This document shows positions 831-10,228 of a DNA stretch of 10,228 nt, in pieces. The stretch is from an uncultured bacterium. Its GTDB lineage: Bacteria > Bacillota_A > Clostridia > Oscillospirales > Oscillospiraceae. The stretch's first letter is position 1. Every line of letters begins with the position of its first letter. The notes beneath the pieces were generated by a model. It was not told the DNA's origin and searched no databases. It worked only from the letters and a program-made list of their open reading frames with translations. The DNA lies in NCBI GenBank assembly GCA_905214605.1, contig CAJMMY010000024.1:1-10228 (forward strand). The letters run 5' to 3'. The position numbers and the translations under genes are program-made.

Positions 831-3257
831 ATGCCTGCAAAAAAGAAAACAGCGCCTGTTAAGCTCACCGCAAATCCGCGCGGCAGCGCCCGTGTTTCTA
901 AAAAACCGCCTCTGACGCCTGCACAGCTGAAGCAGATCGACGCGTATTGGCGCGCATCCAATTACCTCACTGCCTGCCAGCTCTATTTGCTGGATAACCC
1001 CCTGCTGGAGCGGCCTTTGACCGCTGCGGATCTGAAGCAGACCATCGTGGGCCACTGGGGTACCTGCCCGGGCCAGAACTTCATCTATACGCATTTGGAC
1101 CGGGTCATCAAGCGGGATGATCTGGATATGATCTACCTTTCCGGCCCCGGTCACGGCGGCAACGCCATGGTGGCGCAGGATTGGCTGGACGGCTCCTATA
1201 CCGAGGTGTATCCCAACATCACCCGAGACGAAGAGGGTATGCAGAAACTGTTTAAGCAGTTCTCTTTCCCCGGCGGCATCGCCAGCCATGTGGCGCCGGA
1301 AACGCCGGGTTCCATCAACGAGGGCGGTGAGCTGGGCTACAGCTTGTCCCACGCATTCGGCGCCGTGGCGGATAACCCCGGTCTGATTGCCGCCTGCGTG
1401 GTGGGCGACGGCGAGGCGGAAACCGGACCGTTGGCCACTTCCTGGCAGCTGAATAAGTTTCTGGACCCGAAAACCGACGGCGCCGTGCTGCCCATTCTCC
1501 ATTTGAACGGATTTAAAATCGCAAACCCCACGGTTTTGGCCCGCATTACCCACGAAGAGTTGGAGCAGTTCCTCCGGGGCTGCGGCTGGACCCCCTATTT
1601 TGTAGAGGGCAGCGACCCGGCAGAAATGCACCCGAAAATGGCCGAAGCATTGGACACCTGCATCACGGAAATTCTGGAGTATCAGCGCCGCGCCCGGGAA
1701 GAGGGCGTGGACCAACGCCCCCGTTGGCCCATGATTGTGCTGCGCACTCCCAAGGGCTGGACCGGTCCAAAGGTGGTAGACGGCAAGAAAATCGAGGGTT
1801 CCTTCCGGGCGCATCAGGTGCCCATTCAAATTACCGATGAGGAACATCTGCATCTGTTGGAAGACTGGCTGAAAAGCTACCGTCCCGAGGAGCTGTTTGA
1901 CGAAAACGGCACCCCGAAAGACTACATGATGGACTTTGTTCCCGAGGGCACCCGGCGCATGGGTCTGAACCCCCACGCCAACGGCGGTCTGCTCCTCCGG
2001 GACCTGCGGATGCCCGATTTCCGGGACTACGCATTGAACGTACCCTACCCCGGCGCCGTAGACGCGCAGGATATGATTGAACTGGGCGCATTCGTCCGGG
2101 ATATTCTGAAACTGAATAGCGAGCGCCGGAATTTCCGGGTATTCGGCCCCGATGAAACCCAATCCAACCGTCTGGGCAAGGTCTTTGAGGTCACCGGTCG
2201 GGATTGGAATGCCGATGTTGACGAGGACGATGAATTCCTCTCCCGGGACGGCCGGGTCATGGACTCCATGCTCTCCGAGCACGTGTGCGAGGGTATGCTG
2301 GAGGGTTATCTGCTCACCGGACGGCACGGATTTTTCAACTCCTATGAGGCCTTTATCCGCGTGGTGGACTCCATGTTCTCTCAGCACGCAAAATGGCTGA
2401 AAGTGTGCAGTCAGCTGCCTTGGCGGCAGGATATTGCCTCTTTGAACTATGTGCTGTCCAGTAACGTCTGGCAGCAGGACCACAACGGTTTTACCCATCA
2501 GGACCCGGGTTTCCTGGACCACGTGAGCAACAAAAAGGCAGACGTGGTGCGGATGTACCTGCCCCCCGATACCAACACCCTGCTGTGCTGCTTTGACCAC
2601 TGCATCCGTTCCCGGAACTACGTGAATGTGATGGTCACCAGTAAGCACCCCCGCCCCCAGTGGCTGACCATGGACCAAGCCGTGAAACACTGCACGGAAG
2701 GTCTGGGCATCTGGCAGTGGGCCTCCAATGACCAAGGCGCCGAGCCGGATTTGGTCATGGCTTGCGCCGGGGAAACCCCCACGTTGGAGGCATTGGCCGC
2801 CGTGATGATTCTCCGGGAGCATTTCCCCGAGCTGAAAATCCGGTTCGTAAACGTGGTGGACCTGTTCCGTCTGCAATCCAACGAGCAGCACCCCCACGGT
2901 CTGACCGACGCGGACTTCGATGCCATTTTCACCACCAACGTACCCATCGTGTTCGCATTCCACGGCTATCCCTCCCTCATTCACAAGCTGACCTACAAGC
3001 GGCATAACAAGAATCTTCACGTCCGGGGCTACGTGGAAGAGGGCACCATTACCACGCCCTTTGATATGCGGGTGCAGAACTATCTGGACCGGTATCATCT
3101 GGTGATGCTGGCTTTGCAGCAGCTGCCTTGTCTGGGCAACCGGGGCGCGGCGCTGAATCAGGAAATGAAAGACAAACTGGTGGAACACGCCCAGTATATC
3201 GCAGAGTACGGCATTGATATGCCGGAAATTGCCGATTGGCGCTGGAAAGCAATTTAA
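831..3257 (+). CDS. xfp: Xylulose-5-phosphate/fructose-6-phosphate phosphoketolase
   Basis: Thiamine diphosphate enzyme that cleaves xylulose 5-phosphate (and in many members fructose 6-phosphate) with phosphate to acetyl phosphate plus glyceraldehyde 3-phosphate or erythrose 4-phosphate. Acetyl phosphate can then yield ATP through acetate kinase. The 808-residue length fits the family. Visible family blocks are AYWRASNYL (38-46), GHWGTCPG (74-81), GPGHGG (105-110), [20 protein letters not shown] (146-165), the cofactor/Mg site GDGEAETGP (192-200) and [10 protein letters not shown] (224-233). The start is set by AAAGGAGG seven bases upstream. The first 26 or so residues, rich in Lys, Arg and Pro, precede the usual start of the fold and look like a basic extension. 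The gene is monocistronic, with its own promoter and a strong terminator. Fructose 6-phosphate use cannot be decided from sequence. Confidence 0.96.
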
Positions 3258-3329: not shown

Positions 3330-4163
3330 TTATCCATGGAGTTTCCGCAGCAGCGCAATTTCTTCCCCATAGCCGGAATCCGCCGTCTGGGGTGTTTCCA
3401 AAATAAACGGAATTCCCTGCAAAGCCGGGTGGCAGATGATGCGCCGAATGGCATCGATGGACAGCTTTCCCTCGGTGATGCGGGCATGGCGGTCTTTATG
3501 GCTGCCCCGGTCATTCAAGCTGTTGTTCAAATGCACCGCCTTCAGGCGCTTGAGCCCCACAACCTTGTCGAATTCCGTCAGCACACCGTCCAAATCGTTT
3601 TCCACATCGTAGCCTGCGTCCCACACATGGCAGGTATCCAGACAGACGCCCATCTGTGCCTGATGCTCCGTTCCGTCCAAAATGGCTCGGAGTTCTTCAA
3701 AGCGGCTGCCCACTTCGCTGCCTTTTCCCGCCATGGTTTCCAGCAGCACGGTGGTATGCATTTCCGGCCAAAGCACTTGATTCAGCAGGGCCGTTATCTC
3801 CCGGATTCCCGTTTCCACCCCTTGCCCCACATGGCTGCCCGGGTGGAAATTATAAAACTGTCCCGGCATTGCCTCCAGCTTTTCCAAATCCTCCGAAAAG
3901 GCCCGGTGGGCAAACTCCCGCACGGTTTCCTTGGCGCCGCAGGGGTTCAGGGTATAGGGCGCGTGAGCCACCATCGGCGCCATGGCATGTGCTTGACAAA
4001 AGGCCATAAATTCCGCTGCGTCCGCCGGGTCCAGGGGCTTTGCGCTGCCGCCCCGGGGATTCCGGGTAAACAGTGCCAAGGCATTGCCGCCCAATTCTGC
4101 GGCATGGCGCGCTGCCGGGGCATAACCGCCGGCAGAAGAAACGTGACATCCGATATAAAACAT
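3330..4163 (-). CDS. nfo: Endonuclease IV (deoxyribonuclease IV, AP endonuclease)
   Basis: Zinc-dependent TIM-barrel enzyme of base excision repair that cuts the DNA backbone 5' of abasic sites. From the ATG at 4163 the protein has 277 residues, close to the family length, and begins MFYIGCHVSSAGGY like E. coli Nfo. Residues matching the three-zinc site are H67 (VAHAPY), H107 (NFHPGS), E142 (LLETMAG), D176 and H179 (LDTCH), H211 (VHLNNS), D224 and H226 (KDRH) and E256 (LETP), so the enzyme should be active. The frame stays open upstream to 4238, but those extra 25 codons read through Illumina adapter sequence (4176-4191) and are not real coding sequence. No proper Shine-Dalgarno is visible. 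An AGG at the insert/adapter boundary may be the remnant of one. The 5' flank is therefore unreliable. Confidence 0.94.
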   Translation of the reverse strand: MFYIGCHVSSAGGYAPAARHAAELGGNALALFTRNPRGGSAKPLDPADAAEFMAFCQAHAMAPMVAHAPYTLNPCGAKETVREFAHRAFSEDLEKLEAMPGQFYNFHPGSHVGQGVETGIREITALLNQVLWPEMHTTVLLETMAGKGSEVGSRFEELRAILDGTEHQAQMGVCLDTCHVWDAGYDVENDLDGVLTEFDKVVGLKRLKAVHLNNSLNDRGSHKDRHARITEGKLSIDAIRRIICHPALQGIPFILETPQTADSGYGEEIALLRKLHG

Positions 4164-4175
4164 AACTGCAAACCT

Positions 4176-4191
4176 AGATCGGAAGAGCGTC
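4176..4191. other. Illumina TruSeq adapter remnant (probable assembly artefact)
   Basis: The 16 bases AGATCGGAAGAGCGTC are identical to the start of the Illumina universal adapter read-through sequence. Read on the minus strand they are GACGCTCTTCCGATCT, the 3' end of the adapter, after which a library insert begins. Here the insert would begin AGGTTTGCAGTT followed by the nfo ATG. The match stops at 4191, since the adapter would continue GTG and the window has CAA. A chance 16-mer match in a window this size is very unlikely. Confidence 0.9.
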
Positions 4192-4227
4192 CAAACAAAG
4201 CAATATCCCCCCGGAAAACCGAGGGGA
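4192..4227 (-). terminator. Probable terminator of the nfnAB operon
   Basis: Minus-strand RNA would form CCCCUCGG (4226-4219), a UUUU loop (4218-4215) and CCGGGGGG (4214-4207). This is an 8-bp stem with one G-U pair, extendable by a U-A pair at 4206/4227. The pair is an A-C mismatch on the plus strand, so the structure fits minus-strand RNA. The tail (TATTGCTTTGTTT) is U-rich but interrupted. It runs straight into the adapter remnant, so the native tail may be truncated. It lies about 125 bases after the nfnB stop, in a stretch where I see no gene. Confidence 0.45.
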
Positions 4228-4351
4228 CACCGCTGCAATGGAATAAGAAATATGAAAGAAGGGGAAGAAAAACAGCAAATATGCGTTACCGTGACTTCCC
4301 TATGTATCCCTTCGACAAGGGCAGGGTATCACGTTTTCCCGGCGGGGTCAA

Positions 4352-5746
4352 TCACTTTCCCTTGGACCCCCGGAGATATTCGTCAATGGCCGCTGCGGAC
4401 TTCTTGCCTGCGCCCATTGCCAGAATCACCGTTGCCGCGCCGGTAACCGCGTCGCCGCCGGAGAACACATTCTCCAGAGAGGTCTGACCGGTTGCCTCGT
4501 CCGCCTGAATACCGCCCTTGGGCGTAAATTCCAGACCTTCCGTGGTCTTGCGAATCAAGGGGTTGGGGTTGGTGCCCAGCGCCATGATGACCACATCCAC
4601 GTCTAGCTCTTCAAACTGGCCTTCCACAGGAACGGGCTTGCGGCGGCCGCGCTCGTCCGGCTCGCCCAGCTCCATGACCTGACACTTGATTTTAGAAACG
4701 CCCACCTTCGGGTCGCCTTCGATTTCCACAGGGTTGCGCAGGGTGCGGAACACAATGCCCTCTTCCTGTGCATGCTCCACTTCCTCTTTCCGGGCGGGCA
4801 GCTCTTCCATACCTCTGCGGTAAACGATGCTCACCTCTTCGGCGCCCAGACGGAGCGCGCAGCGCGCTGCGTCCATTGCCACGTTGCCGCCGCCTACAAC
4901 GGCTGCCCGTTTCGGACGCTTAATGGGGGTGTGGCTGCCTTCCTGATAGGCTTTCATCAGATTGATGCGGGTCAAAAATTCGTTTGCGGAGTAAACGCCT
5001 TTCAGGTTTTCTCCGGGAATATGCATGAACATGGGCAAACCGGCGCCGGAGCCGATGAACACGGCATCGTACTCTTCCCGCAGCTCATTGACGTCAATGA
5101 CCTTGCCCACCACCATATCGGTGAGAATTTCCACGCCCAGAGCCTTCAGACCCTCGATTTCCCGGGCCACAATGGCTTTAGGCAGACGGAACTCGGGAAT
5201 ACCGTAGCTCATCACGCCGCCGGGCAGATGCAATGCCTCGTACACAGTCACGGCATAGCCCCGCTTTGCCAAATCACCGGCGCAGGTCAAGCCTGCGGGA
5301 CCGGAGCCGACCACAGCTACCTTGTAGCCGTTGGGTTCGGGTTTCTGAACATTTTCCAGAGGTTTCTCATTGTGACGGTCCGCCACGAAACGCTCAATCC
5401 GGCCGATGGCCACGCTTTCGCCCTTAATGCCCCGGGCGCAGTACTTCTCACACTGATTTTCCTGGGGGCAAACACGGCCGCACACGGCGGGCAGGCTGGA
5501 ATCAATGGAAATGATGCGGTAAGCCTCGTCAAAATCACCCTCGCCGGCGGCGCGGATAAATGCCGGAATGTTCAAAGACACCGGGCAGCCTTCCCGGCAG
5601 CGGGGATATCTGCATTGCAGGCAGCGGGCTGCCTCGTCCTTCACCTGTTCTTCGGTGTAGCCGGTGGCCACTTCGTCAAAGTTTCTGGCCCGCACCAGAG
5701 GTTCCTGGGTGGGCATGGGATTTTTCGTCATAGACATATTGGCCAT
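4352..5746 (-). CDS. nfnB: NfnB, large subunit of electron-bifurcating ferredoxin:NADP+ oxidoreductase
   Basis: Flavoprotein of the glutamate-synthase small-subunit-like family, 464 residues, cytoplasmic. With NfnA it couples NADH and reduced ferredoxin oxidation to reduction of two NADP+, or the reverse. The N-terminal domain carries two cysteine groups for [4Fe-4S] clusters: C42, C45, C50 and C54, then C89, C93, C99 and C103. FAD binding is shown by VVGSGPAGL (145-153) and the C-terminal FSGGDAVTGAATVILAMGAGK block. A second nucleotide site, VVGGGNVAMDAAR (283-295), fits NADP(H). The length agrees with NfnB (about 465 residues). The start ATG is one base after the nfnA stop, and GGAGGTGG inside the nfnA end is its ribosome binding site, so the two are translationally coupled. 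M4 or M6 are possible alternative starts. By sequence alone it resembles GltD, but the adjacent NfnA and absence of a GltB gene favour NfnB. Confidence 0.92.
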   Translation of the reverse strand: MANMSMTKNPMPTQEPLVRARNFDEVATGYTEEQVKDEAARCLQCRYPRCREGCPVSLNIPAFIRAAGEGDFDEAYRIISIDSSLPAVCGRVCPQENQCEKYCARGIKGESVAIGRIERFVADRHNEKPLENVQKPEPNGYKVAVVGSGPAGLTCAGDLAKRGYAVTVYEALHLPGGVMSYGIPEFRLPKAIVAREIEGLKALGVEILTDMVVGKVIDVNELREEYDAVFIGSGAGLPMFMHIPGENLKGVYSANEFLTRINLMKAYQEGSHTPIKRPKRAAVVGGGNVAMDAARCALRLGAEEVSIVYRRGMEELPARKEEVEHAQEEGIVFRTLRNPVEIEGDPKVGVSKIKCQVMELGEPDERGRRKPVPVEGQFEELDVDVVIMALGTNPNPLIRKTTEGLEFTPKGGIQADEATGQTSLENVFSGGDAVTGAATVILAMGAGKKSAAAIDEYLRGSKGK

Positions 5747-5747
5747 C

Positions 5748-6590
5748 TTACTCCACCTCCATTTTGAACAGATTGCAGGCTACGTCCCGTTCTTTCTTCT
5801 CGAAATCCTGATACATGGTGCTGCGGCAGATTGCCTCGTCGAAGTCAATCAAGTGACCGTCGAATTCCGGACCGTCCACGCAGGCGAATTTGATTTCGCC
5901 GCCTACGGTCAGTCGGCAGCCGCCGCACATTCCGGTGCCGTCCACCATGATGGGGTTCATAGAGGCCAAGGTTTTAATGCCGTACTTTTTCGTCAGCAGG
6001 CAAACAAATTTCATCATCGGCAGGGGTCCCAGCGTAATGACCTTGTCGTACTTCCGGCCGCTGTCAATCAGACTCTGCAGACCCTCGGTCACCAGACCCT
6101 TGGTTGCGTAGCTGCCGTCGTCGGTCATCACAACGCAGTGGTTGGTCATTGCGGTGATTTCCTTTTCCAGAATCACCAGATCCTTGTTCCGGAAACCGAT
6201 GACCGCGTCCACATCTACGCCCCGGTTATGCAGCTCCCGAATGACCGGGAAACCGATGGCGCAGCCGGAGCCGCCGGCTACCACGCAAACGGTTTTCGCA
6301 TCGTCCAGATCCGTGGGGTTGCCCAGAGGACCCACCACGTCTGCCAGATACTCGCCGGGCTTTTTATGATTCATCGTCTCCGTGGTTGCGCCGGCAACCT
6401 GGAAAATGAAACTAATCGTTCCCCGTTCAATATCCCAATCCTCAATGGTCAGGGGAATTCGCTCGCCGTCATCGGTGACGCGGAGAATACCGAACTGGCC
6501 GGTTTTTACTTTTTTTGCAATATGAGGCGCCTCCAACGTGATTTTTGTCAGAGTCGGGTTCAGCGGTTCCATATCTACGATTTTTACCAT
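5748..6590 (-). CDS. nfnA: NfnA, small subunit of electron-bifurcating ferredoxin:NADP+ oxidoreductase
   Basis: NAD(H)-binding flavoprotein of the ferredoxin-NADP reductase-like superfamily (sulfide dehydrogenase/dihydroorotate dehydrogenase electron-transfer subunit type), 280 residues. In the Nfn complex this subunit carries FAD and a [2Fe-2S] cluster. FAD contact: ERIPLTIEDWD (43-53). Nucleotide-binding glycine loop: VVAGGSGCAIGFP (103-115). The cluster motif is MVDGTGMCGGC...FACVDG, with C222, C225 and C237 and D217 as the probable unusual fourth ligand reported for NfnA. I chose the ATG at 6590 because GGAGGT lies nine bases upstream and the protein then begins MVKIVDMEPLNPTLTKITLEAP, as relatives do. 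The same frame is open to 6653, but that earlier start lacks a ribosome binding site and overlaps the leader. Transcribed with nfnB. Confidence 0.93.
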   Translation of the reverse strand: MVKIVDMEPLNPTLTKITLEAPHIAKKVKTGQFGILRVTDDGERIPLTIEDWDIERGTISFIFQVAGATTETMNHKKPGEYLADVVGPLGNPTDLDDAKTVCVVAGGSGCAIGFPVIRELHNRGVDVDAVIGFRNKDLVILEKEITAMTNHCVVMTDDGSYATKGLVTEGLQSLIDSGRKYDKVITLGPLPMMKFVCLLTKKYGIKTLASMNPIMVDGTGMCGGCRLTVGGEIKFACVDGPEFDGHLIDFDEAICRSTMYQDFEKKERDVACNLFKMEVE

Positions 6591-6599
6591 TTTTTGACT

Positions 6600-9563: not shown

Positions 9564-10228
9564 TTATGCGCGGTCAATGGGCAGACCGGCAGCCTCCCGC
9601 TCCTTGATTGCGTCCTTGCGGCTCAGGTTTACGCGGCCGCGGTCGTCAATCTCGGTGACCTTTACCCAAGTCCAGTCGCCGATGTTCAGAACATCTTCCA
9701 CCTTCTCGGTGCGCTTGAACTCCAGGTCCTTAATGTGGCACATGCCGTCCTTACCGGGCACCAGCTCAATGAATGCGCCGATGGGGATAATGCGGACCAC
9801 CTGACCATAGTACATCTGGCCCACTTCCGGCTCAAACACGATGTTCTCAATGGTCTTGCGGGCAGCGCGGCAAGCCTCGATATCCTCGGAGGCAATGAAG
9901 ATCATGCCCTCGTCGGTGATGTCGATTTTGCAGCCGGTGTCGGCGGTGATTTTCTGAATCACTTTGCCGCCGGAGCCAATGACTTCGCGAATCTTCTCGG
10001 GCTTAATCTGCATCTGAATCATCTTGGGAGCGCTCTTAGCCAGTTCCTTGCGGGGTTCGGGCAGAGCCTTCAGCATAACCTCGTCCAGAATCTGCAGACG
10101 TGCCTCCCGGGTGATTTTGAAGGCCTCTTTCACGATTTCATGTTTCAGACCGTCGTTCTTCAGGTCCATCTGAATGGCGGTGATGCCCTTCTTGGTGCCG
10201 GCCACCTTGAAGTCCATCTCGCCGTGGA
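9564..10228 (-). CDS. pnp: Polyribonucleotide nucleotidyltransferase (PNPase), C-terminal part
   Basis: Phosphorolytic 3'-5' exoribonuclease of RNA decay. About 220 codons are in the window and the N-terminal two thirds lie beyond the right edge (whole PNPase is about 700 residues). The visible part opens with ...HGEMDFKVAGTKKGITAIQMDLK, the end of the second RNase PH core. The Asp of MDFK corresponds to the catalytic D492 of E. coli, and the partner D486 is just outside. Counting from that Met, the KH domain spans about 65-127 (IGSGGK loop at 80-85) and the S1 RNA-binding domain about 132-203 (GQVVRIIPIGAFIELVPGKDGMCHI...GRVNLSRKD). The protein ends 14 residues after the S1 domain without the long tail some species have. 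Its stop is followed 18 bases later by a terminator. Confidence 0.97.
   Translation of the reverse strand, partial: HGEMDFKVAGTKKGITAIQMDLKNDGLKHEIVKEAFKITREARLQILDEVMLKALPEPRKELAKSAPKMIQMQIKPEKIREVIGSGGKVIQKITADTGCKIDITDEGMIFIASEDIEACRAARKTIENIVFEPEVGQMYYGQVVRIIPIGAFIELVPGKDGMCHIKDLEFKRTEKVEDVLNIGDWTWVKVTEIDDRGRVNLSRKDAIKEREAAGLPIDRA

Follow-up and report, generated by a model that had tools for sequence, protein, structure and literature searches.

A 15-base Illumina adapter scrap in an nfo ribosome-binding site: a documented type of assembly artefact at a somewhat unusual position

Introduction

Does a scrap of sequencing adapter inside a contig mean that the DNA on its two sides was wrongly joined? 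The window analysed here, a stretch of 10,228 bases, raises this question between nfo and nfnB. The initial annotation recognised 16 bases of Illumina TruSeq adapter there and inferred a probable chimeric junction, across which nfo, along with all the DNA on its left, might not adjoin nfnB. Contamination of microbial assemblies by residual TruSeq adapter is documented. In the portions of Moeller et al. (2024, PMC11536531) on which we draw, the adapter is reported to be enriched in genomes from MGnify (at p < 0.01 in 1110 of 15,657 assemblies, with ~157 expected), and its remnants concentrate at contig ends, the authors suggesting that contigs are broken by them.

Results

To the left of the site, the phosphoketolase gene xfp (831..3257, plus strand; NCBIfam NF003619, 1351.7 bits, cutoff 962) is convergent with nfo (3330..4163, minus strand), which encodes a 277-residue deoxyribonuclease IV (NCBIfam TIGR00587, 275.5 bits, cutoff 129.65). 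To the right, a gene for a gltA-type NADPH-dependent glutamate synthase or NfnB-type subunit (4352..5746, minus strand; NCBIfam TIGR01316, 557 bits, cutoff 471.75) lies beside one for an NfnA-type FAD/NAD-binding subunit (5748..6593, minus strand; NCBIfam NF004862, 372.7 bits, cutoff 220). The gltA-type gene and its FAD/NAD-binding partner are what the initial annotation calls the Nfn pair (NfnB and NfnA). Protein cluster P0002 (source ENA, 86 member sequences), which is 99% identical to the window nfo product, suggests that the species is present in ENA data.

The adapter match is real and exact. Positions 4176-4191 of the plus strand read AGATCGGAAGAGCGTC, with which the TruSeq adapter opens, so that the match begins at the adapter's first base. 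The nfo start codon (4163-4161, minus strand) sits 12 bases further left, as annotated. Screening of both strands for 11- and 12-mers of four adapter types, at all places of each word, found no other such word in the window; a 10-mer of the index adapter occurs at 9716. Over the two strands of 10,228 bases, the chance expectation for an exact 16-mer match is 4.8e-6, rising to 5.5e-6 when the base composition of the window is used, in line with the earlier estimate of about 5 in a million.

Public contigs carry this 16-mer in excess. It was found in at least 120 stretches of IMG/VR viral contigs, against 1 for the reversed 16-mer and 5 for a one-base variant, and it is present at 25 sites in 16 of 300 genomes sampled from the family of G001 (the metagenome-assembled genome SUG991), the reversed control in 0. 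The annotated reading of the match as residual Illumina adapter is thus supported; its orientation is that of read-through where an insert terminates at 4175.

Most of these matches lie at contig ends. Among the 126 viral sites in the 120 stretches listed, 95 directly abut the end of the contig, and in all 124 are no more than 150 bases away from it; of the remaining two, one is 153 bases from the end and one is interior (L129), where an N comes next and 12 single Ns are scattered over the stretch. Of the 25 family sites, 11 (10 loci) were inspected; ten lie within 13 bases of a contig end and the other at 226 bases, and the contig of L212 terminates exactly after the 16 adapter bases. These end-of-contig positions agree with the portions of Moeller et al. 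(2024, PMC11536531) cited above. The scrap in the window is not at a contig end (4176 of 10,228), an unusual interior position matched, among the matches listed, by one of the 126 viral sites (L129). An outward-pointing position at the end is typical of residual adapter, not obligatory.

Comparison with relatives establishes the gene order around the site. A scan of genome contigs with the nfo protein gave two loci, L001 in MAG SUG991 (77% identity) and L002 (52%), the second too distant to be informative. The SUG991 genus set comprises four genomes (G001, G003, G004 and G005). Present in two of the four genomes (G001, at 77% to the window protein, and G003, at 71%), nfo directly follows nfnB (gltA) in the same orientation in both. 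The G001 contig runs pnp, 5'-deoxynucleotidase, MATE, nfnA, gltA, nfo, ~3 kb of other genes and xfp, and the relative orientations agree with those in the window, so that its xfp is convergent beyond nfo, ~3 kb further off. The order of nfnA, MATE, 5'-deoxynucleotidase and pnp beyond nfnB is the same in G001 and G003; xfp was not found in the ~9 kb beyond nfo of G003. Neither G004 nor G005, whose completeness is not stated, gave a match to the window nfo at E <= 0.001, and in both, genes other than nfo follow a gltA at 87-88%. The nfnB-nfo adjacency is therefore genuine in this lineage, though not universal. The adapter is absent from the nfo leaders of G001 and G003 and from both genomes.

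How the flanks meet was examined by an excision scan blind to the adapter, in which every 8-24-base stretch within the 120 bases upstream of nfo was omitted in turn (1785 excisions). The G001 leader before the nfo ATG reads GTTTGGAGGTTTTTTTC, and the minus strand of the window reads GTTTGG, the adapter, AGGTTTGCAGTT and the nfo ATG. Against G001, the best match crossed the cut in 71 of the 1785 excisions. The top two were 4176-4190 and the equivalent one-base shift, each with 15 identical bases, followed by a next best of 12. Three of the 15 matching bases lie in the end of a dispersed repeat of G001 and 12 outside it; with the reference cut to the 17 leader bases outside the repeat, the same two excisions lead, with 12 bases against 9. 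The same scan against G003 gave a best match of 8 bases with many ties and no preference for the adapter. On this comparison with one relative, G001, the foreign part is 4176..4190 (plus strand), the first 15 bases of the TruSeq adapter, and C4191 is native.

The cut falls inside the nfo Shine-Dalgarno sequence GGAGG. On the nfnB side, the native flank GTTTGG (4191..4196, minus strand) has its match in the G001 nfo leader at GTTTGGAGG, which lies outside the repeat, and the last two bases of GTTTGG form the distal half of the Shine-Dalgarno sequence. On the nfo side, the native leader as defined by the G001 comparison (4164..4175, minus strand) supplies the proximal half, AGG at 4175-4173. As the scrap splits GGAGG, the nfo ribosome-binding site is probably damaged on paper only.

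The dispersed repeat measures ~134 bases (L001:9850-9983), just upstream of the leader bases compared, and has a fold energy of -51.6 kcal/mol, calculated without a shuffle control. At least 41 matches occur in G001 (40 of 90 candidates scored), with weaker ones in G003 (8), G004 (15) and G005 (at least 25). All matches end at query positions 161-170 save two, the element itself and a fragment of 23 bases, and the bases that follow differ in the two other copies inspected (L218 and L222). The repeat was not found in the window, and three of its loci, in G001 and G005, had no Rfam match at E <= 0.5.

The scan bears directly on whether the 15 bases are genuinely genomic and resemble the adapter by chance. 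Such an event, at 5e-6, is not impossible over very many windows, and control 16-mers do turn up in viral contigs (1 and 5 times). The match, however, starts exactly at the adapter's first base, at the point where colinearity with G001 is lost, and colinearity returns at the 15th base of the match, leaving a chance likeness scarcely credible.

A junction with an unrelated piece, in which an adapter-tailed end was joined to DNA from elsewhere so that nfo and nfnB are not neighbours, would fit the tendency of adapter scraps to mark fragment ends and the presence in G004 and G005 of nfnB without an adjoining nfo. Against it stand the adjacency and orientation of the two genes in G001 and G003, flanks that are base-for-base colinear with G001, and, as weak or low-power tests, a composition without a step at the site: GC3 is 0.66 in nfo and 0.70 in gltA, and splitting at the site gives a tetranucleotide distance of 0.227, within the 0.195-0.267 of other splits. 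We consider this origin very unlikely.

Equally improbable is a join at the adapter between two closely related strains that share gene order. Synteny alone would give the same picture for such a join as for one within a strain, and a public nfo protein, P0003, equals the window nfo to residue 168 but departs from it thereafter, the pattern that a chimera or recombinant within the gene would produce. Identity to G001, by contrast, is in the same range on both sides (nfo 77% and xfp 85% on the left, 74-92% on the right), and GC3 shows no step, both weak tests. P0003 is 85% identical to the window nfo overall, and by eye P0005 resembles its pattern; both are possibly chimeric assemblies or recombinants.

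With gene order kept in G001 and G003, and flanks that meet without loss relative to G001, ~15 bases are foreign and synteny across the site stands. The scrap is very probably a trimmed-adapter artefact between true neighbours that became interior when its piece was joined to the adjoining genomic piece, and nfnB and nfo are most likely true neighbours across it. Of the annotated chimeric junction, the assembly of adapter into the contig holds, and the separation of nfo and the DNA to its left from nfnB does not.

The native stretch between nfnB and nfo contains elements of its own. A promoter-like TTGACC-17-TACCCT (4323..4351, minus strand) directly follows the nfnB (gltA) stop and reads TTGACA-17-TACACT in G001, G004 and G005. 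Between nfnB and the adapter, comparison of four sequences reveals a terminator-like hairpin with covarying arms (4199..4234, minus strand), in which 6 of 14 predicted pairs have both members altered in one or more of the four. A pyrimidine-rich core between the two, TTCCATTCCCTTCTTTCATA...TATCCCTCTTGCAGC, is conserved in G001, G004 and G005 and looser in the window. The promoter-core-hairpin unit (homologues L003, L167 and L168) is kept in G004 and G005 though the downstream gene differs, and was not found in G003 by the searches made. With a promoter-like site and a terminator-like hairpin between the genes, an nfnB-nfo operon is doubtful. The earlier advice to discount operon and synteny statements across the site thus survives for the operon, owing to these native elements, and not for synteny.

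Judged from the four sequences, 4195-4351 (minus strand) might be an undescribed small RNA gene, a candidate that we put forward tentatively. Rfam returned no match in this region at E <= 1, and two sub-threshold matches elsewhere. An RNA model of the unit (R1) matched 23 of 149 genomes at E <= 0.1, strongly only in G001, G004 and G005, all of them training sequences; the next best genome was G088 at 3.3e-5. About half of 10 weaker loci inspected by eye show a pyrimidine tract before a hairpin, which marks the model as unspecific. A stricter pattern matched 4 of 300 genomes, its control none; in the fourth, G027, it lies beside a different gene. At this locus (L194), a near-identical pyrimidine core, CCATTCCCTT...TATCCCTC, and a hairpin are seen by eye behind an MFS-type transporter.

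Interior scraps were also sought in viral contigs, with a pattern requiring further downstream sequence ending in a non-G base, so the 14 loci obtained are a lower bound. These at least 14 loci hold 16 sites, of which four lie less than 120 bases from the contig start (L170, L171, L175 and L183) and 12 are interior. At five of the 12 (L172, two in L176, L181 and L182), the last 6-20 bases before the adapter are repeated right after it. Duplication of the flank on both sides indicates a join, via the scrap, between two pieces of one region that overlap and are hence colinear. One further interior site (L180) bears an N at the junction. The interior sites are not independent, since five of the 12 (L173, three in L176, and L182) belong to one contig and a sixth (L181) to the same assembly. 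That IMG/VR contig, 2602041661_000004 (35.6 kb), with five interior scraps, three of them with duplicated flanks, belongs to a poorly cleaned assembly. At two loci (L174 and L178) the match is exactly 16 bases long, lacks both a duplicated flank and an N, and could have arisen by chance, so 16 matching bases do not by themselves prove adapter. The window site likewise has neither feature, unlike 6 of the 12 interior precedents. A phage search using L192 gave no match.

Discussion

The 15-base scrap of Illumina adapter in the nfo ribosome-binding site is an assembly artefact of a type already documented, and its position is slightly unusual. Its origin would be ordinary: a library insert would have ended at 4175, its reads would have run on into the TruSeq adapter, and trimming presumably left 15 adapter bases. 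The piece ending in the scrap was then probably joined to its true neighbour, by an overlap join or gap closing, and the scrap thereby became interior. In the cell, nfo would have an ordinary ribosome-binding site.

The consequences concern quality control only. The 15 bases are to be masked and synteny across the site is usable, while base-level claims on the nfo ribosome-binding site should not be drawn from this contig. More generally, finding an adapter scrap within a contig does not in itself prove a chimera; what decides is the comparison with a relative.

The window shares with the contamination described in the cited portions of Moeller et al. (2024, PMC11536531) the same adapter, an exact match and the read-through orientation. 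It differs in that the adapter sites there lie mostly at contig ends, whereas the scrap in the window is interior, between native neighbours and without a duplicated flank. Among viral interior scraps (L172, L176, L180, L181 and L182), five sites have 6-20 bases of duplicated flank and L180 has an N, neither of which the window has. They resemble the window in carrying the adapter mid-contig, and at five sites there the flanks overlap and are colinear.
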